A stretch of DNA of 64,000 nucleotides from Thermoanaerobaculia bacterium. GTDB taxonomy: Bacteria > Acidobacteriota > Thermoanaerobaculia > Multivoradales > Multivoraceae. The notes under the pieces are model-generated. The model saw only the letters and a program-made list of their open reading frames with translations. It was not told the origin of the DNA and made no database searches. Positions 18,637-30,060 of the stretch are shown here, piece by piece (position 1 is the stretch's first letter; every line of letters starts with the position of its first letter). The translations under genes and the position numbers were made by a program. The stretch spans positions 62,001-126,000 of the forward strand of contig JAJDUI010000009.1 of the NCBI GenBank assembly GCA_022826745.1. The letters are read 5' to 3'.

Positions 18637-19623
18637 ATGACGATTGAGGCACTCTACGGCGCCGTCGATCTCGGCGGTTCCCACGTCGGGCTGGCCCTGG
18701 GCGTTGTGGATACCGCGGCCGGCGAGTTCCGCCTGGTTGCCCGCCGGGACCTCGAAGGCGGCGGCTATGACGGCTGGCAGCCCGTCCTCGACCGGATCGC
18801 CGAGGGGCTTCTTGAGCTGGCGCGGGAGGTCGGGGAACCGCCGGCCGCCATCGGCGTCGGCTGCCCCGGATGGGTCGACCTCGAGGCCGGCGTCACCCGG
18901 TTTCTGCCGAACCTCCCGGGCCAGTGGCGCGACGTCCCGGTGGCCCGCCTGCTCGGCGAGCGGCTGGCGGCCCCGGTCCACCTGCTGAACGACGTCCGGG
19001 CAGCGACGCTCGGGGAGTTCTCGTTCGGCGCCGGCCGCGGCGTCTCCACGATGGCCCTGTTCGCGCTCGGCACCGGCATCGGCGGCGGCGTCGTGGTCGA
19101 CGGCAGGCTGCGCCTGGGGCCGCTCGGCTCGGCCGGCGAGCTTGGCCACCAGATCGTCGATCCCGGCGGCCCCCTCTGCGGTTGCGGCAACCGGGGTTGC
19201 CTGGAGGCGGTGGCGAGCGGTCCGGCAATCGCGGCCGCCGGCGTCCGGCTGTTGCGCTCGGGCCAGGCGCCGGCGCTGTTCGATCTCACCGGCGGCGATG
19301 CCGGACAAGTCACGGCCGAGACGATGGGCGAGGCGGCAAGGGCCGGCGACGAGGCGGTGACGAAGGAACTGGAGCGGATCGCGGGCCTCGTCGGCATAGC
19401 CGCCGCCAACGTCGTGGTCACCCTGCACCCCGAGCTCATCGTGCTCGGCGGCGGCGTCGCCGGCCTCGGCGACCTGCTCTTCGACGGCGTCAGGCGGACG
19501 GTCGCCGACCGCGTTCGCGTGTTCCCGATCGACGGCGTGCGGGTCGAGCCCGCGGCCCTCGGCACGGATGCCGGCCTGGCCGGCGTGCTGGCTTGGGCTG
19601 CGAGTGCTTCTTCAGGTCGCTGA
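18637..19623 (+). CDS. ROK family sugar kinase (glucokinase-like)
   Basis: The 328-residue product has the ROK layout. An ATP-phosphate loop sits near the start (AVDLGGSHVG), a second glycine-rich loop is LGTGIGGGVVVDG, and the ROK signature with the zinc-binding CGCGNRGCLE follows GELGHQI. The catalytic Asp is expected in LLNDVRAA (near residue 118). No N-terminal winged-helix domain is present, so it is a kinase and not a NagC-type repressor. Glucose is the likely substrate, but N-acetylmannosamine or others cannot be excluded. It starts 50 bases after the terminator, so it has its own promoter; a GAGAAT box at 18617-18622 is a weak -10 candidate. It is convergent with hsdR. Confidence 0.85.
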   Translation: MTIEALYGAVDLGGSHVGLALGVVDTAAGEFRLVARRDLEGGGYDGWQPVLDRIAEGLLELAREVGEPPAAIGVGCPGWVDLEAGVTRFLPNLPGQWRDVPVARLLGERLAAPVHLLNDVRAATLGEFSFGAGRGVSTMALFALGTGIGGGVVVDGRLRLGPLGSAGELGHQIVDPGGPLCGCGNRGCLEAVASGPAIAAAGVRLLRSGQAPALFDLTGGDAGQVTAETMGEAARAGDEAVTKELERIAGLVGIAAANVVVTLHPELIVLGGGVAGLGDLLFDGVRRTVADRVRVFPIDGVRVEPAALGTDAGLAGVLAWAASASSGR

Positions 19624-19687: not shown

Positions 19688-22654
19688 TCAGTAGTACTGG
19701 CGGATGTAGCCGTAGGCGCGATCGAAGAGTTCCTGGTCCTGATGCAGGCGGTACTTGAAAAGCGTCTTCCGGAGCGCCCGCCGGACTTCGCGCTCACCAG
19801 CATGGGTCGTTTGCCAGCCCTCAAAGCGGACGTGCCGGACGATCTCGTCGATGTCGTTGACGACTCGCTCGACCATGATCGGGGTTTGGTCGTTGCGGGC
19901 CTCCTCGAACAACTCGGTGAGGGCCGCCTTCCCGCGTTCTTCGGACGTCGCCGGTTCGACGGTCCGTTCCGCCTCGACCACATCACGAGCCAGTTCCAGC
20001 AGGGACTTCAGGAACTCGATGCTGACCAGGAGGCCCTGCTCGTGCCTTTGGCGCAAGTCCTCGAGTCGTTCGCCAAGGGCGCGAAAGCGGGGGTCCTCCG
20101 CGTGTCGGCGCAGACGGTTCGCAACCTTGATCTCGATCTCCTTCGTCTTGCTGTCAGGGTCGGGGGTTCCAAGGACTGCGTCCAGCACGTCGGCGTCCAG
20201 CACCAACGTCTCGAGGTCGTCGCGAACCGCGTCAACGTGGACATGCCGGTGGATGAGGTCGATGGTCTGGGGCCCCAGCGTGTGCCAGAGGAGCTTGCCC
20301 GTTCCAGTAGAGGGTCTCACGGATTCGTAGACCTGACTCAGCCAGCGGTAGTCGGTCTCGTAGGACTCCAGGCTCGGGTGGGGGGAGATTGCTTCCCAGA
20401 GCCGGGTGAGGTAGCTGTAGTCGGCGGCGAAACGGTCGCGGGTCCCGTTGTCCGGGAGGCACTCCTGTGCGGCGATCAGACCTTCGTAGCCGGTGACGGT
20501 GCGATCCACGCCTTGGAACCTTGCGAGGCACTTCTGTACCGCCGCGGGAAGCGCCGCGACCAACTCGTTGATGTTGGTGACGACGCGGGTGATGCCTTCC
20601 TCGTCGAACTGGATTGCCTGGGCCACGTCGTCGAACACGCCGAGGTAATCGACGATGAGCCCGTGCGTCTTGGTCTCGCCATACGGCCGGTTCGTCCGGC
20701 AGATGGCCTGGAGAAGGGTGTGGTCGCGCAGCGGCTTGTCCAGGTACATCGCTTGCAGAATGGGAGCGTCGAACCCGGTCAGCAGTTTCGAGGTGACAAT
20801 CAGGACCTTCAGCGGGTCATGTGGATCGCGGAATCGATCGAGCAGGACTTCCTCGGCGTCCCGGCCCCGTCGGTAGGCGGCGTACTGTTTCTCGCCGCTG
20901 TTGACTGTCATCACAACGTCCGACATTTCAGCCGGAAGCACTCGGTCGAGCGCCTGCTTGTAGAGCACGCAGCTCTCGCGGTCGTAGGTGACCACCTGGG
21001 CTCCGAACCCGCTCGGTGCCACCTTTTCCTGGAAGTGCTTGGCGATGTCGGAGCAGATCCGTTCGATCCGCTCCGGTGTCTTGAGCAAGATCGCCGTACG
21101 GGCCGCCGCTTTCGTGAGCTGCTCGCGGTCGAGGTCGCCAAGGCTGCCGGTCAGTTCCTGGTACTCGGCGTCAATCGCATCGCGGTCGATGTGCAGTTCC
21201 GGCAGGCGCGGCTCGAAGTGAAGCGGCTTCGTTGCGCCGTCGCGGACAGACTCCTCGAACCCGTAGCGACTCAAGTAGCCGTAGTCGTCCTCCTCGGCGC
21301 CGAAGGCGAAGAACGTGTTGCGGTCGGCGCGGTTGATGGGCGTACCAGTGAGTCCGAACAAGAAGGCGTTCGGTAGTGCCCTGCGCATCTTGCGGCCCAG
21401 GTCGCCTTCCTGAGTCCGGTGGGCCTCGTCGACGAGCACGATGATGTTCTGGCGGTCGTTCAGGATCCCGCCTGCTTCGGCGAACTTGAAGATGGTGGTG
21501 ATGATGATCTTGCGAGCGTCCTGGGCCAGCAGCTGCTCCAGCTCCGCCCGACTGTCCGCCTTCTTCAGGTTCGGCGCGTCGGCCGCGTAGAACGTGCCGG
21601 AGAGCTGTGTGTCGAGGTCGATTCGGTCGACCACGATGATCACTGTCGGGTTCTGAAGGGCCGGGTGCAGCCGCAGCTTCCGAGCGGCAAACAGCATCAG
21701 CAGGGACTTGCCGGATCCTTGGAAGTGCCAGATCAGCCCCCTTCTGGGATGACCGCCGACGACTCGCTCGACGATTCGGTTCGCCGCTTCGACCTGCTGG
21801 TAGCGGGCCACGATCTTCGTGCGCCGTTTTCCCTTGGCCGTGGCGTAGGCCGTGTAGCTGCCCAGAAGGTCCAGGACCACCTGCGGTCGGAGCATTGACG
21901 AGACGGTCCGTTTGACGGTCTCGATCGCCGGCATCTCAGCTTCATCGTCCGTTCGCCACGGTCCCCAAAGGTCAAGCGGCAGACCGATAGAGCCGTAGCG
22001 CAGCTCCTTCCCCTCGGTGGCGACCGAGCAGAGGTTGGGAACGAACAGCTCCGGTACGCTGCTCTCGTAGTCGTCGTGGATCTGCGCGGCAGCGTCGAAC
22101 CAGCTCTGGCTTGGTCGTACCGGGGTCTTCGCCTCGATGACGACCAGCGGCAGTCCGTTCACGAGCAGGACGAGATCGGCGCGCCGCTCTTTGGCGCCCG
22201 ATCGGACCGTGTACTGCGTCGTGACGACGTAGTGGTTCCTCTCGATGTCGGCGAAGTCGATCAGACGGATCGTCACATGCTCGCCATTCGCGCCGAACGG
22301 CAGCGACCGTTCTCCGCACAGCCATGCCGCGAACTCCTCGTTCGCCTTCACTAGGCCGTCGGTCCGCACGCCCATCAGGATGGCTCGCAACCGGTACAAG
22401 ACGTCGTCGGCCCGATCAGGCTGCGCGGCAATCTCAGGATTGAGCCGAGTCAGTGCCTCCCGAACGTGATCCTCGACGAGGACCTCGTGCGCTTGCCGGG
22501 GCAAGTGCTGGTGGCTGAGGAAATGCCAACCGAGGCCGGAGATCGCGCCCTGCCGCCGGGCCAGGCCGGGCCCCGTGACCGTATGGTGGGTGATACCGCC
22601 GCAGAGGATGTCGCGGACGAGGGCCTCGACCGTGTTCGACTCGGTGAACGTCAT
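19688..22654 (-). CDS. hsdR: Type I restriction enzyme R subunit (HsdR)
   Basis: The product is 988 residues from the ATG at 22652-22654; the frame is open slightly further but that part overlaps the DUF433 gene. The nuclease domain (residues to about 270) has the PD-(D/E)xK elements ADLVLLV and VIEAK. The SF2 motor shows Walker A in FQGSGKS, the Walker B box as DEAH in VDEAHRTQ, and motif III as GLTGTP; motif VI resembles QAICRTNRPY. Length and order are those of HsdR, which translocates DNA and cuts at a distance when bound to the methylase complex. Its M and S genes lie 3.1 kb upstream on the same strand, beyond an inserted opposite-strand cassette. Confidence 0.95.
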   Translation of the reverse strand: MTFTESNTVEALVRDILCGGITHHTVTGPGLARRQGAISGLGWHFLSHQHLPRQAHEVLVEDHVREALTRLNPEIAAQPDRADDVLYRLRAILMGVRTDGLVKANEEFAAWLCGERSLPFGANGEHVTIRLIDFADIERNHYVVTTQYTVRSGAKERRADLVLLVNGLPLVVIEAKTPVRPSQSWFDAAAQIHDDYESSVPELFVPNLCSVATEGKELRYGSIGLPLDLWGPWRTDDEAEMPAIETVKRTVSSMLRPQVVLDLLGSYTAYATAKGKRRTKIVARYQQVEAANRIVERVVGGHPRRGLIWHFQGSGKSLLMLFAARKLRLHPALQNPTVIIVVDRIDLDTQLSGTFYAADAPNLKKADSRAELEQLLAQDARKIIITTIFKFAEAGGILNDRQNIIVLVDEAHRTQEGDLGRKMRRALPNAFLFGLTGTPINRADRNTFFAFGAEEDDYGYLSRYGFEESVRDGATKPLHFEPRLPELHIDRDAIDAEYQELTGSLGDLDREQLTKAAARTAILLKTPERIERICSDIAKHFQEKVAPSGFGAQVVTYDRESCVLYKQALDRVLPAEMSDVVMTVNSGEKQYAAYRRGRDAEEVLLDRFRDPHDPLKVLIVTSKLLTGFDAPILQAMYLDKPLRDHTLLQAICRTNRPYGETKTHGLIVDYLGVFDDVAQAIQFDEEGITRVVTNINELVAALPAAVQKCLARFQGVDRTVTGYEGLIAAQECLPDNGTRDRFAADYSYLTRLWEAISPHPSLESYETDYRWLSQVYESVRPSTGTGKLLWHTLGPQTIDLIHRHVHVDAVRDDLETLVLDADVLDAVLGTPDPDSKTKEIEIKVANRLRRHAEDPRFRALGERLEDLRQRHEQGLLVSIEFLKSLLELARDVVEAERTVEPATSEERGKAALTELFEEARNDQTPIMVERVVNDIDEIVRHVRFEGWQTTHAGEREVRRALRKTLFKYRLHQDQELFDRAYGYIRQYY

Positions 22655-22679
22655 GCCGTCAACTGAACCGTCGATGGCG

Positions 22680-22928
22680 CTACGACGTGGCGGCAGTCGG
22701 GCGGTGCGTGTCGGCCACAACCAGCCGTCGCTCTCGGTCCGCGCCGAACGCGAGACAGGCGTAGATGTCGTCGCGCGTCAGGTCCGGGAAGTCCCGGAGC
22801 ACGTCTTCCACCGACATGCCGGACGCCAGGTAGTCGAGCACGTCGGAGACCGTGATGCGCAGGCTGCGGATGCAGGGCTTGCCACTGCGCCTACCCGGCT
22901 TGATCGTGATCCGGCCCAAGGGGGTCAT
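22680..22928 (-). CDS. DUF433 antitoxin-like protein
   Basis: From the ATG at 22926-22928 the product is 82 residues. It begins with a GRITIKPGRRSGKPCIR segment and continues with a helix-turn-helix-like region (ITVSDVLDYLASGMSVEDVL, then DLTRDDIYACLAFG), which is the DUF433 pattern. DUF433 proteins usually act as antitoxins or regulators, commonly beside a DUF5615 PIN-like toxin. No such toxin is present here. The gene lies 25 bases upstream of hsdR on the same strand and is probably co-transcribed with it, so a regulatory role for hsdR is possible but unproven. Confidence 0.7.
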   Translation of the reverse strand: MTPLGRITIKPGRRSGKPCIRSLRITVSDVLDYLASGMSVEDVLRDFPDLTRDDIYACLAFGADRERRLVVADTHRPTAATS

Positions 22929-23022
22929 CAGGCTCAGCGTACGCAACGCCAAGCCATCGATCAAGCAGCCGAAGTGCGCCTAAGCTCGATAGGGCGGTCC
23001 CAGGTGTTCCGGCTGGTCACAC

Positions 23023-23051
23023 TTCACAGTGCTCTTCACATCGCATACACT
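23023..23051 (+). promoter_or_regulatory. Sigma-70-like promoter for the inserted cassette
   Basis: TTCACA (23023-23028) is separated by exactly 17 bases from TACACT (23046-23051), a near-consensus spacing with good boxes for high-GC DNA. Transcription should begin near 23058 and give a leader of about 40 bases before the GTG start at 23098. Confidence 0.6.
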
Positions 23052-23056
23052 CCGCC

Positions 23057-23075
23057 CGTCGGGCGTCGCCCGACG
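23057..23075 (+). promoter_or_regulatory. Leader hairpin of the cassette mRNA
   Basis: The predicted 5' leader begins with a perfect 8-base-pair stem: CGTCGGGC (23057-23064), loop GTC, GCCCGACG (23068-23075). A ribosome site (TTGAGGAG) starts four bases later. The hairpin sits exactly at the predicted transcript start, so it could be an operator for the HTH protein encoded in the cassette, or an RNA structure that limits ribosome access. Confidence 0.5.
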
Positions 23076-23097
23076 TCTTGAGGAGCTACAGAACTAG

Positions 23098-23898
23098 GTG
23101 GATTCGACCGAGAACCCCCTGACGGGGTCGCCACCGCCCGAGGTTCCCCTCGCCAATGCACCGCTGATACGCGTCATCGCGCAGGTGCGCTTCCCGCTGA
23201 TCGCCTCCGTGGAGAACCGCAGCTTCGTCGCCCCGTTTCAGGAGGCGATTCGGGACGACTACCCGACACTGCGCCCGGAGAAGAGCCAGAACGTCGTTAT
23301 CGGCCCAGCGGGTCCGGCTAGCGTGCAGTCCAGCGTGTCGTGGCGGTTCAGCGATGCGACTTCGAATTGGCGAGTGACGCTCGCCCCCGAGTTTCTCGCA
23401 CTTGACACCAGGCAGTACACGAGCCGCGATGACTTCCTCGACCGGTTCCGCCGAGTCCTGACCGAGCTCGGCGAACATGTGAACCCGGGGACGGTCGACC
23501 GCCTCGGAGTGAGGTACATCGACCGAGTCCTGGGCGAGAGTCTCCGGGCGCTGCCGCAACTCGTGCGCCCGGAGGTGGCTGGAGTCATGGCGACGCCACT
23601 GGCAGACGACGCTCACCACATGATCGCCGAGACCTTGTTCCAGTTGCCTGAGACCAGCAGCCAACTGATGGCCCGTTGGGGTCGTCTGCGCGCTGGCAGC
23701 ACGGTCGATCCGGCAGCGATCGATCCCGTCGACGAGCCGAGCTGGATCCTCGACGTTGACGCCTTCACTCAGGAGACGAGTGCGTTCGAAGTCGAGACGA
23801 TCGACCTACGGGCGAGGGCGCTCGCTGAACGCATCTACAGCTTCTTCCGCTGGGTCGTAACGGCCGAGTTCGATCGCACGTACGGGGGGACTTCATGA
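23098..23898 (+). CDS. TIGR04255 family protein
   Basis: The 266-residue product (GTG start, after AGGAGC) resembles the TIGR04255 family. It has an N-terminal strand on the pattern PLIRVIAQVRFP, a middle segment of the form DRLGVRYIDR and a closing alpha-helix AERIYSFFRWVV near the C-terminus. The family is sporadically distributed and has no established biochemical role. It overlaps the HTH gene by four bases (ATGA), so the two are coupled. It is the first gene of a cassette inserted between hsdS and DUF433-hsdR on the opposite strand. Confidence 0.72.
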   Translation: MDSTENPLTGSPPPEVPLANAPLIRVIAQVRFPLIASVENRSFVAPFQEAIRDDYPTLRPEKSQNVVIGPAGPASVQSSVSWRFSDATSNWRVTLAPEFLALDTRQYTSRDDFLDRFRRVLTELGEHVNPGTVDRLGVRYIDRVLGESLRALPQLVRPEVAGVMATPLADDAHHMIAETLFQLPETSSQLMARWGRLRAGSTVDPAAIDPVDEPSWILDVDAFTQETSAFEVETIDLRARALAERIYSFFRWVVTAEFDRTYGGTS

Positions 23899-24623
23899 AT
23901 CTACAGCGCGGTACCTATGGGTCGCCGACTGAGCCGGAGCGAAGCACGCTTGTGCGATGGGAGCCTCGCGAGCAGTTGCCTAGGATCCCGGTCTTGCTCG
24001 TGAGCGGACAGTTGCTGACCGCCGGAACGTCGGCCGCGTCCCCGATGGACGTGTGGCCGGAGTCCTTCGAGTACGACTGGAGACGGACAGCGGTCGTCGA
24101 CTGCTCCTGGGACGTGGCGACGTACACCGGTGGAGTCGCGGCGATCTCCTCGGATGATACGAGTCGAGCCATCTCGGAGTTGCGCCGCATATCGGCGCTG
24201 ACCTGGGAGCAAGTCGGACAGCTCTTCGGTGTCTCGCGGCGGAGCGTTCACTTCTGGGCCAGCGGCAAACAGATGAACGTCGCCCATGAGCAGCGTCTCT
24301 TCGAGATACTCGACATCGTCCGACAAGCCGACCGCGGTGAGGCCAGACGCAATCGGGCCGCTCTCCTCTCGGTGACGGATGGCGAGGCGGCGGTCGATCT
24401 GCTGGCGGCAGGAGAGTTCGCGGAGGCCAGAGCGCGGCTCGGACGCGGTGAGGCACGCGGACGCGTGGAACCGGAAGAGCTCGATGCGGACGCACGGGCC
24501 GAGCGGACACCGCCTCCACCCGATAGCTTGATCGAAGCGATGAACGATCGGATCCATCGGGATGCCGGGCGCGGCGGCGCCGCGCGCACCGTGAGGAACA
24601 TGCGGCGTGAATCGGCGGGATGA
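23895..24623 (+). CDS. HTH-containing cassette protein
   Basis: The 242-residue product starts at an ATG overlapping the upstream stop. The central region around residues 95-120 is a helix-turn-helix of the XRE/Cro type: SALTWEQVGQLFGVSRRSVH, followed by FWASGKQM. The first 60 residues have no recognised domain, and the last 90 are rich in Arg, Glu and Ala and probably partly unstructured. A DNA-binding regulator of the cassette is the simplest reading. The third gene starts inside this one, overlapping by 17 bases. Confidence 0.65.
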   Translation: MNLQRGTYGSPTEPERSTLVRWEPREQLPRIPVLLVSGQLLTAGTSAASPMDVWPESFEYDWRRTAVVDCSWDVATYTGGVAAISSDDTSRAISELRRISALTWEQVGQLFGVSRRSVHFWASGKQMNVAHEQRLFEILDIVRQADRGEARRNRAALLSVTDGEAAVDLLAAGEFAEARARLGRGEARGRVEPEELDADARAERTPPPPDSLIEAMNDRIHRDAGRGGAARTVRNMRRESAG

Positions 24624-25500
24624 GGCGCCCCCGGCAGCCATCGACCGCATCGGCGAGGCGCACAGGGGCCGCGTCGACGACGCTCTCCGACTTTGGCGGC
24701 AGGGCGATTGCGTTCTGGGCGACCAAGAGTTCCTCTTCCGGTTGAATCCCGCGGCGCCGTTGACGGAGCCGGCGGCTGTCGCAGCCGCCGTCGGTGCCGA
24801 CGCGGCAGAAGTACAAGTCCGTGGATACGCCATTGTGACGCAGACCTGCGACATCGTCCGCGCTTGTGAGAGCCGGCCCTTCGTTCAGGTCTGCCCCTTG
24901 GTGCAGGTGGACGCGGACAGGCTCGCGGAGATCCGACGCGGGCGCAGGCCGAACTACGCGTTTCTTCCGGGAACCGAGCAGCAGAGGCTGGTCGCCGATC
25001 TCGACTGCGTGATGACCGTGGAGAAGGCGGTCGTGGCCGACTGGGAACGCGTCGTTGGCGCGCCTCGGGAAGAGGACGTCAGACGTCTTCGGCAGGCCCT
25101 CACTCGCAACCGAAGTCGTGTGGCGTTCCCCGATGACTTTGTGCGGTTGGCGTCGCAACTGACGAGCCGAATGTCGAAGAAGCACGACGCACAGAGCGAC
25201 GAGGGGCGTGCTCTTCGGGCACTAAGGGAGATTCGGGTCCGGGCCGAGCCTTCTTGGCGCGCCTCCGAGGTCGCTCTCCTGCTTCTCTTCGTACGTGACG
25301 ACTCAGTCGAGACCTTCGCTGGGCAGACCTGGGACAACTACTTGAGCCTGTGGCTGAACCGAGTTCAGCCACAGGGCCGGTTCAGGCAGGTGGAAGGTGT
25401 GGTGCAGACGCTCGACGACCTGACGGGTCGGGACTACGTCGAGAGCGACCCGCTCGACCTTGACCACCTGTCCCTCGGCCCCGGCGCGAGGCTCGGGTGA
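24607..25500 (+). CDS. Unknown protein, third gene of the cassette
   Basis: I do not recognise this 297-residue protein. It starts at GTG 24607 inside the HTH gene. Visible features: an N-terminal helical region, then a beta-rich part with conserved-looking VTQTCDIV, RPFVQVCPLV and YAFLPGT segments, then VADLDCVMTVEKA. The two cysteines in TCDIV and QVCPL could bind a metal or form an active site. No signal peptide or membrane segment is present, so it should be cytoplasmic. The coupling with the TIGR04255 and HTH genes suggests a three-protein module. No transposase or integrase is visible nearby. Confidence 0.6.
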   Translation: MNRRDEAPPAAIDRIGEAHRGRVDDALRLWRQGDCVLGDQEFLFRLNPAAPLTEPAAVAAAVGADAAEVQVRGYAIVTQTCDIVRACESRPFVQVCPLVQVDADRLAEIRRGRRPNYAFLPGTEQQRLVADLDCVMTVEKAVVADWERVVGAPREEDVRRLRQALTRNRSRVAFPDDFVRLASQLTSRMSKKHDAQSDEGRALRALREIRVRAEPSWRASEVALLLLFVRDDSVETFAGQTWDNYLSLWLNRVQPQGRFRQVEGVVQTLDDLTGRDYVESDPLDLDHLSLGPGARLG

Positions 25501-25745
25501 TCGAGTCGTTGTCCGTTTGGGCCGGCGTCCGCCGCCGCCGAAGGCCCTAGTCGGCGAAAGCGAGTGGGGCAGAAGCCAACGGAGATTGCGAACTCCGCGG
25601 CGTTGACGCGGGGAACTGTCTCGATTCGGCAGAGAATTCGGGAGTCTGGCGCACCCGTACGGGACGTGATCTCCGGTCGGCGGCGCTCACTTCCGCACGA
25701 GTTGCAGATCGGATTCAGGGCTGTGTTTCGGTCCCCATGTCTCGC
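25501..25745. other. 245-base spacer with no recognisable feature
   Basis: This gap separates the end of the cassette (plus) from the 3' end of hsdS (minus), so it is between converging genes. A short frame (25564-25857, plus) runs through it but its 3' half lies antisense to hsdS, and it has no ribosome site or recognisable domain. I see no hairpin with a T-run, no repeat and no att-like direct repeat matching the other cassette end. Confidence 0.5.
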
Positions 25746-26930
25746 TCATGAGTTCAGCAGGATGCTCTTGAGCCGAGCGAGACGATCGGCCCGGTGCTTA
25801 AGGTCCCTGTCCCGAAGATCCCTCATACTCGTGATGACACTCAACGACCTGCGCTGATCGCAAAGGGGCGGCACGACGAGCCGGTGAGCGCGAACGTCCT
25901 GCCCGTTCACCATCCAGATGCCGTTCGTCGACTTGGCTCTCGCGCTGAACTGTTGATGCACGGTGGGCAGGTTCCACTGGGCTACCGCGAAGGCGGGGAG
26001 GATCCGCGCCGGGTCGAACCGAAGTCTTATGAGTTTGTCGTGGTAGAACACGTCGCCGTAGGACATTTCAGCCAGGCCGGCCTGACCGCAGATGCTCCGA
26101 TTTCCGTTGCCTCGGATGACGAAGGCGTCGTCCCGTTGAACGAGGAACTGTGCCGCGAGCGCTTCATCCACATTGACGCACTTTGTCACGTTCTCGGGGT
26201 TGAAGCGTCCTCCGGCCACGGCTGAGACGGTCACGGTCTTCAGTCCGGCTTGACGCACGCTCTGTCCCCCTTTCGGCGCTACGAAAAGGCCGTTCTTGGG
26301 CGGTTCGCGGAGCAGGTCGGCTACCCGTACTGGCGGGGGTTCTCCCTTAGCCTTGGTGGCCAAGGCTCCCTGCAGCACACTGGCTTCCGACTTCACGATG
26401 GTGTGCGCAAGGTGCGCGAAGGCTCTGAGCGCTTCCTCGATGGCCGTCAACACCTTCGCAAGTCGGCGCTGTTCGTCCAGCGGCGGCAGGACGAACGCTT
26501 CGTTCGCAAGGGTACGCCAGTTGATCGTTGGCGACAGCGAGCCGACGGAGATGGCCTTTGCGCGCTTCATGAACGTGTCGCTTTGCATAAAGAACGGCAG
26601 GAACTCGGGCGCGACGACTCTGGGTCTTGCGCGAAGGACAAGGGCGTGCGCAGAGCAGATGCCCTTGAAGTCCGCGACCGCGAGTTTTCGCTGATAGACG
26701 CGGCGTCGGCCGAGGATGATGTCGCCCTTGCGGAAGAGGAGCTTTGTCGCGGTCACGTCACTGGGTGCTCCCCAGCGGCGGATCGCCAGCGAGTCGGAGT
26801 CGAGGTGCTCGAGGCCTACATAGCGTTCGACACCGGCCTCAACGGGATTGTCGACTCGGTCGTTCACGCAGGTAGCCAAGTCACCGAAGGCGACCCGCGT
26901 CCAACCAGGCTTCAGCCTGCAGCTACTCAC
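25746..26930 (-). CDS. hsdS: Type I restriction specificity subunit (HsdS)
   Basis: I start it at the GTG at 26928-26930, which overlaps the hsdM stop by 8 bases; the frame is open upstream but that part is inside hsdM. The 394-residue product has two target-recognition domains. The first, to about residue 165, begins KPGWTRVAFGDLA and ends with NEAFVLPPLDEQRRL, followed by a central helix. The second begins PPPVRVADLLREPP and ends with a similar helix; LVVPPLCDQRR marks the matching point. This two-half layout with repeated 'LPPLxxQ' elements is standard HsdS, which determines the bipartite DNA target. Confidence 0.9.
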   Translation of the reverse strand: MSSCRLKPGWTRVAFGDLATCVNDRVDNPVEAGVERYVGLEHLDSDSLAIRRWGAPSDVTATKLLFRKGDIILGRRRVYQRKLAVADFKGICSAHALVLRARPRVVAPEFLPFFMQSDTFMKRAKAISVGSLSPTINWRTLANEAFVLPPLDEQRRLAKVLTAIEEALRAFAHLAHTIVKSEASVLQGALATKAKGEPPPVRVADLLREPPKNGLFVAPKGGQSVRQAGLKTVTVSAVAGGRFNPENVTKCVNVDEALAAQFLVQRDDAFVIRGNGNRSICGQAGLAEMSYGDVFYHDKLIRLRFDPARILPAFAVAQWNLPTVHQQFSARAKSTNGIWMVNGQDVRAHRLVVPPLCDQRRSLSVITSMRDLRDRDLKHRADRLARLKSILLNS

Positions 26931-28452
26931 CGGGCCGGGTCTCCGCGACGACCCGCTCGACCATGTCAAGCACGCTGTCCGTCTCGCGCCAGAACGCTGC
27001 GGTGCCTGCGTCGAAGCCGGCCCACGTCTGCCGCAGATCGCCTCCGGCCCGGGCACCGTCATCCGGTTCGTCGATCCGCCGAACGTAGCGGGGGATGGAC
27101 AGATTGCCCTCGTTAGCCAACACGTCGGCGTTGGACGCGACGGCGGCGAACCCAGGCTCGTCAGCGAAGGTCTCGTACGCCGTCAGAATCCGCTTCTGAT
27201 GCTCCGGTGTCAGGAAGCTCTGAGCCCGCTCCCGCGCGACCTCGCCGACAGCGTCGATGAACAGGATCCTGCCGCGGCGATCGCTCGGTTTCCGCGTCCG
27301 GCAGACGACGACACACGCCTCCATCGGCGAGTTGTAGAACAGGTTCGGGCCCAGACCGAAGACGCACTCGACGAGGTCGCGCTCGATCAGGGCTCGACGC
27401 ATCGCCGCCTCATCCTGGCGGAACAGGACGCCGTGCGGGAACAGGATGGCACACCGGCCGGTCCGAGGGTCGAGGCTCTTGAGAATGTGCTGGAGGAAGG
27501 CGTAGTCGGCTCGCCCCTGAGGCGGCGTGCCGAGGTTGTTTCGTGACCAGGGGTCGTTGGACCACTTCGCGCGGTTCCACGTCCTGATGGAGTAGGGCGG
27601 ATTGGCGAGAATCACGTCGAACGTCATCAGGCGGTCCCGCTCGACGAAGGCGGGCTCGCTCAGGACGTTGCCGACGGCGACGTGAAAGTCGTCTATTCCG
27701 TGTAGTACGAGGTTCATGCGCGCTACCGACGCCGTCGTTGCGATGAGCTCCTGGCCGTAGAGGCCGAGCGTACGTGCGTCGTCGCCGTTCCGCCGTACTT
27801 CGGCCAGAGCCGAGATCAGCATGCCGCCGGTACCGGCCGTCGGATCGTAGATTCGCTCGCCGGCTTGCGGCTGGAGCATCTTCGTCATCAGGTGCACCAA
27901 CGTCCGATTCGTGTAGAACTCCTGCGCGGTGTGCCCGCTGTCGTCGGCGAACTGCTTGATGAGGTACTCGTAGGCGTTGCCCAGCTCGTCCTCGGGCACC
28001 GCGGCAAGGCTCAGCGTGTGTCTCGAGAAGTGCTCGATCAGGTTCTTGAGCGTAGGATCCGGCATCTGCGCCTTGTCGGTCCAGGGCGCGTTGCCGAAGA
28101 CCCCGGCAAGGCGATCCGGGTTGGCCGCCTCGATGGTACGGAACGCTGTCAAAAGCGCGCGGCCAACGTCGCGCGCCACACTTCGGACATCCGTCCAGTG
28201 GGCGCCGGGCGGGATAGTGAACCGGTCGTTGGCGGTAGCCGCCGCGTATCCTCGGTCGCCGGTTTCATCGAGGGCCTTCCGATAGTCCTCGTCCCAGACG
28301 TCGGACAGGCGCTTGAAGAAGAGCAGCGGGAAGACGTACTGCTTGTAGTCGCCGGCGTCGATAAGGCCCCGCAGAAGGTTGGCCGCGCCCCAGAGGTAAG
28401 ACTCCAGCGCCTGCTGGCCAAGGTGTTGGGTGCCTGCGCCTTGGTCAGCCAT
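26923..28452 (-). CDS. hsdM: Type I methyltransferase M subunit, copy 1 (HsdM)
   Basis: The 509-residue product starts at ATG 28450-28452 after an AAGG site. The N-terminal HsdM_N domain includes FPLLFFKRLSDVWDED. The methylase domain has motif I (DPTAGTGGM) and the catalytic NPPY motif (ANPPYSIRTW) of N6-adenine methylases. The stop overlaps the hsdS start, so M1 and S are coupled. A second, clearly paralogous hsdM (28555-30060) lies 102 bases upstream. With HsdS in a 2:1 complex it should form the modification enzyme and, with HsdR, the restriction enzyme. Confidence 0.93.
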   Translation of the reverse strand: MADQGAGTQHLGQQALESYLWGAANLLRGLIDAGDYKQYVFPLLFFKRLSDVWDEDYRKALDETGDRGYAAATANDRFTIPPGAHWTDVRSVARDVGRALLTAFRTIEAANPDRLAGVFGNAPWTDKAQMPDPTLKNLIEHFSRHTLSLAAVPEDELGNAYEYLIKQFADDSGHTAQEFYTNRTLVHLMTKMLQPQAGERIYDPTAGTGGMLISALAEVRRNGDDARTLGLYGQELIATTASVARMNLVLHGIDDFHVAVGNVLSEPAFVERDRLMTFDVILANPPYSIRTWNRAKWSNDPWSRNNLGTPPQGRADYAFLQHILKSLDPRTGRCAILFPHGVLFRQDEAAMRRALIERDLVECVFGLGPNLFYNSPMEACVVVCRTRKPSDRRGRILFIDAVGEVARERAQSFLTPEHQKRILTAYETFADEPGFAAVASNADVLANEGNLSIPRYVRRIDEPDDGARAGGDLRQTWAGFDAGTAAFWRETDSVLDMVERVVAETRPGE

Positions 28453-28554: not shown

Positions 28555-30060
28555 TCAGTCCAGCCAGCCGTCCTCGACCAGCACGCGCCGCAGGCGGTCC
28601 TCGGCGGCCCGCGCCTCGACCAGCGATCGCCTGAACGTGGCCACCGCCTCCGGGAGTGGCGGAACCTCCTCGCCGATGGGTGGCAGCACGTACCGCGAGA
28701 TGTTGAGTGTCCAGTTTTCGCGCTCGATGTCTTCGGTCGAGACGACCTTGGCTCGATCCTCGACGTCCTGGAAGCTGCGTACCCACTCGACGATCAGCTC
28801 GGCATGCCCCGCGTCGAGGAAGTTCTGAGCCCGGCCCTTGCGGAAGAGCCTGGACGCGTCGATCACGATGACCTTGCCGCGCCGGCCGCGTCGCTTCTGG
28901 CGGCGCATCGTGACTACGGCGGGGGCCAAGCCGGTGCCGTAGAAGATGTTGGGCGCGAGCCCGATCACCGCCTCGATGAGGTCCTTCTCGAGAAGCTCGC
29001 GCCGGATCTTTCCCTCCGCTCCCGCTCGGAAGAGCACTCCCTGCGGCAGTACGACCGCCATGCGGCCGGAGTCCGCCGCCATCGAGGCCGCCATATGCTG
29101 GACCCAGGCATAGTCGCCGTAGCGGGCTGGAGGCAGGCCGAACGACGCGCGGCGCCACGGATCCGCTTCCCAGACCTCCCGGCCCCACTCCTTGAGTGAA
29201 AACGGCGGGTTGGCGATCACGCAATCGAACGTGGCCAGGGCGCCGTTGGGGTGGGTGAAGGTCGGTGTCCTGAGAGTGTCGTTCTGTTCAATCTGGAAGT
29301 CATCGACGCCATGTAGCAGGAGATTCATCCGGGCGATGGACGACGTCGTAAGGTTCTTCTCCTCGCCGAAGATGCGCCCGAAGAAGGTCCGCGGGTCGCC
29401 GCCTGCGCGCTCGACGTGATCGATGGCACCGAGCAGCATGCCGCCGGTGCCGCAGGCCGGATCGTAGATGGTCTCGCCTTCCCGGGGATCGAGTAGCTCG
29501 ACCATCATCCGCACGACGCTGCGCGGCGTGTAGAACTCGCCGGCCTTCTTTCGCCGCGTGATGTCGGCGAACTTGCCGATGAGGTACTCGTAGGCGTCGC
29601 CGAGGATGTCGGACCCCACTGACGCGTTTTCCAGCGGCACGGCCGACAGTCGTTCTATGAGGTCCTTGAGTAGCGCGTCACTGAGAATCTCGCGGTTACC
29701 CCAGTCCGCCGCGCCGAAGACGCGGGTGAGTGTGTCGGGGTTGGCACGCTCAATGGCTCGAAGGGCCTTCGTCAGCGCGGCGCCGACGCTCGTTGGCACT
29801 TGACGGACGTCGCGCCAGTGGTGCCCGTTTGGCAGGCGGAAGCGGTGGAGCTCGGGGAAGTCGGCCAAGTCGATGTCGCCGTAGGTCTGTCGAGCCTCTG
29901 CGGCTTCCTCGTCCCATACGTCGCTGATCCGCTTGAAGAACAGAAGGGGCAGGATGTAGGCCTTCCAATCCGTCCGATCGACGGCGCTGCCGCGGAGAAT
30001 CTCGGCGCAGGCCCACAGTTCGGCCTTCAGGTCGTTCAGGGTCAGTCGATTCGGAGGCAC
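28555..30060 (-). CDS. hsdM: Type I methyltransferase M subunit, copy 2 (HsdM)
   Basis: The 501-residue product has the same domain order as copy 1 and similar N-terminal elements (LPLLFFKRISDVWDEE), but differs throughout. Motif I is DPACGTGGM and the catalytic motif is NPPF (ANPPFSLKEW), both of which look functional. It begins at GTG 30058-30060 with no clear ribosome site, 25 bases downstream of the VWA gene stop. No extra hsdS or hsdR accompanies it. It could serve with the single HsdS in a mixed complex, or be an independent methylase. Confidence 0.9.
   Translation of the reverse strand: MPPNRLTLNDLKAELWACAEILRGSAVDRTDWKAYILPLLFFKRISDVWDEEAAEARQTYGDIDLADFPELHRFRLPNGHHWRDVRQVPTSVGAALTKALRAIERANPDTLTRVFGAADWGNREILSDALLKDLIERLSAVPLENASVGSDILGDAYEYLIGKFADITRRKKAGEFYTPRSVVRMMVELLDPREGETIYDPACGTGGMLLGAIDHVERAGGDPRTFFGRIFGEEKNLTTSSIARMNLLLHGVDDFQIEQNDTLRTPTFTHPNGALATFDCVIANPPFSLKEWGREVWEADPWRRASFGLPPARYGDYAWVQHMAASMAADSGRMAVVLPQGVLFRAGAEGKIRRELLEKDLIEAVIGLAPNIFYGTGLAPAVVTMRRQKRRGRRGKVIVIDASRLFRKGRAQNFLDAGHAELIVEWVRSFQDVEDRAKVVSTEDIERENWTLNISRYVLPPIGEEVPPLPEAVATFRRSLVEARAAEDRLRRVLVEDGWLD

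Follow-up and report, generated by a model that had tools for sequence, protein, structure and literature searches.

Discovery of toxin-antitoxin systems has so far centred on gene pairs. Among three-gene arrangements, TAC modules have a chaperone as third component (PMC5105189), and in CmdTAC the chaperone senses a phage capsid protein (PMC11618068). The work on the hyperpromiscuous Panacea (DUF4065) antitoxins and on the NetFlax network describes one family associated with many toxin folds (PMC8832971, PMC10440598), which is itself the antitoxin and is found mostly in two-gene loci (PMC8832971). NetFlax covered two-gene loci (PMC10440598), while the Panacea work allowed for accessory third genes and, in its accessible part, does not name TIGR04255 (PMC8832971). 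The same work mentions paaR-paaA-parE, a toxin-antitoxin operon of three genes in which the regulator is a protein of its own (PMC8832971).

Here we analyze a stretch of 64,000 nucleotides from a member of the Thermoanaerobaculia (the window) which carries three genes, A, B and C (the trio), that look like a toxin-antitoxin-like operon of an undescribed type, with an undescribed extra first protein of the TIGR04255 family. As in MazEF/PemIK, a DNA-binding gene lies upstream of and overlaps a toxin-fold gene, whose product is predicted to contain a MazF/CcdB barrel; moreover, TIGR04255 elsewhere precedes true MazF genes. The trio differs from MazEF/PemIK in its constant third gene (A), in the Xre-type HTH of B, and in C: this protein of 297 aa has both an insertion and an extension at its C-terminus, apparently lacks the canonical catalytic Arg and Thr, and shows no detectable sequence kinship to MazF. 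What it would have in common with TAC and CmdTAC (PMC5105189, PMC11618068) is a set of three genes in which one product is an accessory to a toxin-antitoxin pair, but TIGR04255 proteins are of about 260 aa, are encoded by the first gene, gave no SecB-like match and are partners of several toxin folds. The likeness to Panacea is that of one family accompanying many toxin folds, whereas TIGR04255 heads three-gene operons and a further gene stands between it and the toxin-type gene. Compared with paaR-paaA-parE (PMC8832971), the protein families are different and the constant member, A, has no HTH. Our literature search, over 5.39 million papers other than subscription articles and preprints, found neither the name TIGR04255 nor a described equivalent system.

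Organization of the locus

A preliminary description of this DNA, made from the sequence alone, had placed three overlapping genes between hsdS and a DUF433-hsdR pair and on the opposite strand. The ORF coordinates bear this out (Table 1): the trio is encoded on the plus strand and its flanking genes on the minus strand, A and B overlapping by exactly 4 bases and B and C by exactly 17. The window hsdR falls into one cluster with HsdR-like proteins encoded next to the trio in other loci. Beside the one hsdS and the one hsdR there is a tandem of two hsdM-like methylase ORFs (26923-28452 and 28555-30060, both on the minus strand).

Table 1. Features of the trio and its immediate surroundings in the window.
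Feature	Position	Strand	Evidence and remarks
Gene A: TIGR04255 family protein, 266 aa	23098..23898	+	Profile match E 3e-46; AF2 pLDDT 94.5; shared first component
Gene B: Xre-type HTH protein with conserved C-terminal tail, 242 aa	23895..24623	+	HTH profiles in homologues; candidate cognate antitoxin/autoregulator
Gene C: MazF/CcdB-fold core (residues 26-171) and C-terminal extension, 297 aa	24607..25500	+	Predicted model; candidate toxin
DUF433 protein	22680..22964	-	PF04255 E 2.8e-24; context, outside the module
hsdR, type I restriction subunit	19688..22720	-	Context
hsdS, type I specificity subunit	25746..27062	-	PADLOC Specificity_I E 1.5e-108; context
Sigma-70-like promoter of the trio, TTCACA-17-TACACT	23023..23051	+	Consensus match only; sole site in 22900-25800
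Inverted repeat CGTCGGGC-GTC-GCCCGACG ahead of gene A	23057..23075	+	8-bp stem; possible operator, not conserved

The first gene had been assigned to TIGR04255, and its product indeed matches the NCBIfam profile with 158.3 bits (E 3.1e-46), exceeding the curated cut-off of 30 bits. Concerning B and C, no family in Pfam, NCBIfam or PADLOC was found above cut-off, and none of the three proteins gave a credible match to the defence families listed in PADLOC.

The trio had also been credited with its own promoter and leader hairpin. A single sigma-70-like site, identified by consensus match alone, lies ahead of A, and it is the only promoter-like site in positions 22900-25800, where 0.1 would be expected from shuffles. 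As for the hairpin, the inverted repeat is present, but folding of the leader is no more stable than that of shuffled sequence (z -0.37), and a strong hairpin upstream of the trio occurs in only 2 of 77 loci and is not conserved. The hairpin is therefore no evidence of a feature, and we rejected it as a candidate operator.

The trio is a conserved unit

The preliminary description proposed to look in other genomes for co-occurrence of the three families, which turns out to be the rule and not a rarity. Using profiles of A, B and C, we found the three genes in this order on one strand in 70 of the 76 C-bearing loci that have at least 2.2 kb of upstream DNA, the exceptions including same-genus remnants (L017, L021) and degenerate C fragments. 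The scan with C returned 80 loci in GTDB genomes and two in viral contigs, and trio loci span about ten phyla as well as conjugative plasmids. A plasmid search with C gave homologues, most of them carried by conjugative plasmids, in Chroococcidiopsis, Rhizobium, Sinorhizobium, Sphingomonas, Paenarthrobacter and Kocuria. In the C-bearing records that we inspected, TIGR04255 lies just upstream and the intervening gene is an HTH gene by profile. A comparison of C with annotated phage records gave no match. An Acinetobacter contig labelled as phage (L283, 3483-5630) carries a TIGR04255 - HTH - C-type chain whose third protein contains WRQGG...SGSCD.

Such conservation as a unit across phyla shows the trio to be more than a chance arrangement. 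Within the window's phylum, C is present in 5 of 297 genomes, four of which have A adjacent while the fifth holds a truncated remnant, and TIGR04255 is present in 28 of the 297 (24 above its cut-off); C thus implies A, but the reverse is not true. A close relative of the window hsdR was found in one genus member only, and as this genome also carries the trio, no empty insertion site can be defined.

Two members of the genus (L003 and L004) hold trio remnants from which A has been lost and in which about 215 residues of C are left; L003 has a transposase-like ORF beside C, and L004 has a ROK-kinase gene like that at 18637-19623 of the window. The same-genus relative G012 has a TIR-like ORF (DVFVSHASEDTDAVVRPL...) beside the trio on the hsdS side (L002, 788-1435, minus strand). 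Finally, in three trio loci, L026 (5314-6039), L041 (3464-4189) and L084 (372-1208), the hsdR operon ends with a conserved small gene (cluster 14) whose product by eye resembles a DUF45-type metallopeptidase.

TIGR04255 precedes exchangeable toxin-type genes

TIGR04255 genes were sampled in three phyla regardless of C, and the DNA around 60 of them was inspected, a gene being considered tight when it starts -40 to +30 nt from the end of the preceding one. A tight co-directional second gene follows A in 55 of these 60 loci, and a tight third gene is present in 48 of the 53 that have a tight second gene and a further gene. Two loci scored as loose by the automatic procedure are tight on inspection: L280, where A is followed by a 79-aa gene and a PIN gene with overlaps of 4 and 1, and L161, where a PemK-like gene takes the last place.

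The last genes of these chains include PemK/MazF (L164 and L248 above cut-off, 5.8e-19 and 1.1e-18; L161 weak), PIN (L154, L171 and L280 above cut-off, 1.7e-11, 6.8e-11 and 7.1e-8) and HEPN (L278 above cut-off, 4.4e-8; L167 weak), together with about 16 relatives of C, recognized by profile or by a QG...[ST]xxC motif; the remaining ones belong to unnamed families. A HicA-like reading of L162 and L163 found no Pfam support and was not counted. One unnamed last-gene family (ARYILYRRHIRRD...) follows TIGR04255 in L243, L253, L256, L258, L277, L156, L160, L166, L267 and L269, with second genes that mostly carry a WDGYxA motif; the two may make up a new toxin-antitoxin pair.

Mapped onto a tree built from 54 A proteins, the classes of last gene require 16 changes, where 8 would be the fewest possible. 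They change repeatedly (HEPN 4, PIN 3, MazF 2), HEPN and PIN being scattered over the tree, and a PIN locus (L154) and a C-type locus (L159) are supported sisters. This indicates that A is the lasting element of the chain and that the toxin-type gene following it is the one exchanged.

Fold searches with the confident model of A gave no clear match and middling ones only, such as a guanidino-kinase domain (Z 8.7) and AdoMetDC (about 7), with viral TBP-like proteins also among them. A duplicated beta-alpha-beta4-alpha (TBP-like) layout was considered and set aside, as the secondary-structure reading behind it was too weak to use.

Gene B is a candidate antitoxin with an Xre-type HTH

The middle gene had been described as an HTH protein, and its homologues agree: at E<0.1, HTH_3 is found in 20 of 28 and Xre-like-HTH (PF20432) in 13 of 28, with a best value of 6.6e-4, the window copy lying below the threshold for PF20432. 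After the HTH come a conserved region and then a conserved, proline-containing tail. Type II antitoxins usually combine a DNA-binding domain with a toxin-binding tail. B and C moreover match the type II gene layout, being adjacent and co-directional with a 17-nt overlap, and with the DNA-binding partner upstream of the candidate toxin.

Gene C is predicted to have a MazF/CcdB-like fold

The TCDIV and QVCPL segments of C had been noted for their conserved look, and an alignment of 63 homologues bears this out for TCDIV: Q32, Q79, C81, R171, A173 and P175 do not vary, and in QVCPL P97 is almost invariant. The conserved residues of C include the motifs QGD, TQTCD and RxAxPD. Structure prediction of this protein, another suggestion of the preliminary description, yielded a confident AlphaFold2 model (pLDDT 92.2) that matches the MazF/CcdB fold. 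MazF leads the Foldseek matches against the PDB (prob 1.00, best E 1.9e-3), and all 50 rows listed by VIA are MazF/CcdB/Kid proteins; these matches cover residues 26-171, with Z up to 10.5 (rmsd 2.7 over 102 residues for the best). C is thus predicted to have a MazF/CcdB-like SH3-type barrel as its core, to which an insertion and a C-terminal extension are added.

At the sequence level, PF02452 (MazF/PemK) matched none of the 63 C homologues, and comparison of the C and MazF profiles with hhalign (prob 0.3) detected no kinship; C as a direct sequence relative of MazF/PemK was rejected on these grounds. A PDB sequence search with C profiles returned nothing credible. When the two proteins are mapped by eye, AIVTQTCDIV of C takes the place of VVVQND in MazF, and FVQVCPLVQ that of TVVPLTS. 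On this mapping, G73 and V99 appear to occupy the positions of the catalytic Arg (GxRP) and Thr, and the canonical MazF catalytic residues appear to be missing from C. Because these positions appear changed and no sequence kinship to MazF was detected, the fold does not give the activity: the predicted fold carries over from MazF, but the chemistry should not be assumed to do so.

A proposed tripartite toxin-antitoxin-type module

The explanation that we favour, and consider fairly probable, is that the three genes make up a tripartite toxin-antitoxin-type module in which C is the toxin, B its cognate antitoxin and autoregulator, and A a shared accessory protein, chaperone or sensor. It builds on the gene order and its conservation, the predicted fold of C, the HTH of B, and the association of A with exchangeable toxin-type genes; from there we infer toxicity, neutralization, autoregulation, the role of A and the existence of a trigger. 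C would be the effector, expected to inhibit growth once freed, probably via RNA or another core target. B would be its dedicated partner, with its Xre-type HTH expected on the operon's promoter and its conserved tail expected to keep C inactive. A would work with many different B-C pairs, and would most likely aid the antitoxin in neutralizing the toxin or sense the trigger that releases it. Speaking against this module are the apparent change of the MazF catalytic positions together with the lack of sequence kinship, and the fact that the fold of C rests on prediction. More tentatively, with somewhat less than even confidence, we propose that tripartite modules of the toxin-antitoxin or abortive-infection kind have in TIGR04255 a general, exchangeable third component, which would serve MazF, PIN, HEPN and a large unrecognized MazF-fold superfamily (that of the QG...[ST]xxC motif) via cognate second proteins, as a shared neutralizer, chaperone or trigger sensor.

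The preliminary description spoke of a defence or toxin-type module. The toxin half is upheld by the fold of C and by the MazF-, PIN- and HEPN-like partners of TIGR04255, whereas the defence half is no more than suggested. Seven loci (the window, L011, L026, L041, L043, L050 and L084), among them some from lineages distant to that of the window, have type I restriction genes next to the trio, and such genes look enriched beside it. There are also some PADLOC defence matches among trio neighbours, the trio is carried on prophage and plasmid, and up to a few last genes behind TIGR04255 have matches to the PADLOC candidate PDC-M32B, one model of which matches three of them. A defence role is plausible, and these data would be consistent with abortive infection of the kind for which CmdTAC provides a mechanism (PMC11618068): A, sensor- or chaperone-like, would recognize a phage product and free C to stop the infected cell. 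However, restriction neighbours are a minority; most trio loci have mixed or mobile-element surroundings, and most neighbours are not defence genes. Furthermore, the match lists for the predicted model of A contain no SecB-like protein, a weak negative that does not exclude SecB. We regard this specific form of defence as possible but on balance doubtful.

A little less likely still is that A is the true antitoxin and B, which carries the HTH, a transcriptional regulator only, like PaaR in paaR-paaA-parE. A is indeed the constant partner of many toxin types, and in L171 the gene that comes directly after A and overlaps it is a PIN gene, so that a second gene is missing, a layout that also counts against the tripartite module. 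On the other hand, the second genes of TIGR04255 chains group by last-gene type, as expected of cognate antitoxins, and B is conserved in its tail beyond the HTH.

We find it rather improbable that C has lost toxin activity and that the trio forms a complex with a regulatory or enzymatic role, with Cys81, Asp82 and Gln79 as a new active or ligand site; this would agree with the apparent loss of the MazF catalytic positions and the presence of a new invariant polar set (Q32, Q79, C81, R171), but TIGR04255 also heads loci of this layout whose toxin-type genes are standard MazF or PIN genes. That the three genes are casual neighbours of a restriction locus with no joint function is extremely unlikely: few genus members carry them (C in 4 of the 99 genomes searched, two of these truncated), but what is conserved is the trio and not the restriction genes, and the co-occurrence in 70 of 76 loci contradicts such a reading.

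If the tripartite module is real, a constant family heading three-gene operons, with toxin folds swapped behind it, would represent a new wiring of toxin-antitoxin modules, one that resembles TAC or Panacea and yet is distinct from both. TIGR04255 would then offer a handle to find many unrecognized toxins, including a Cys-motif MazF-fold superfamily.
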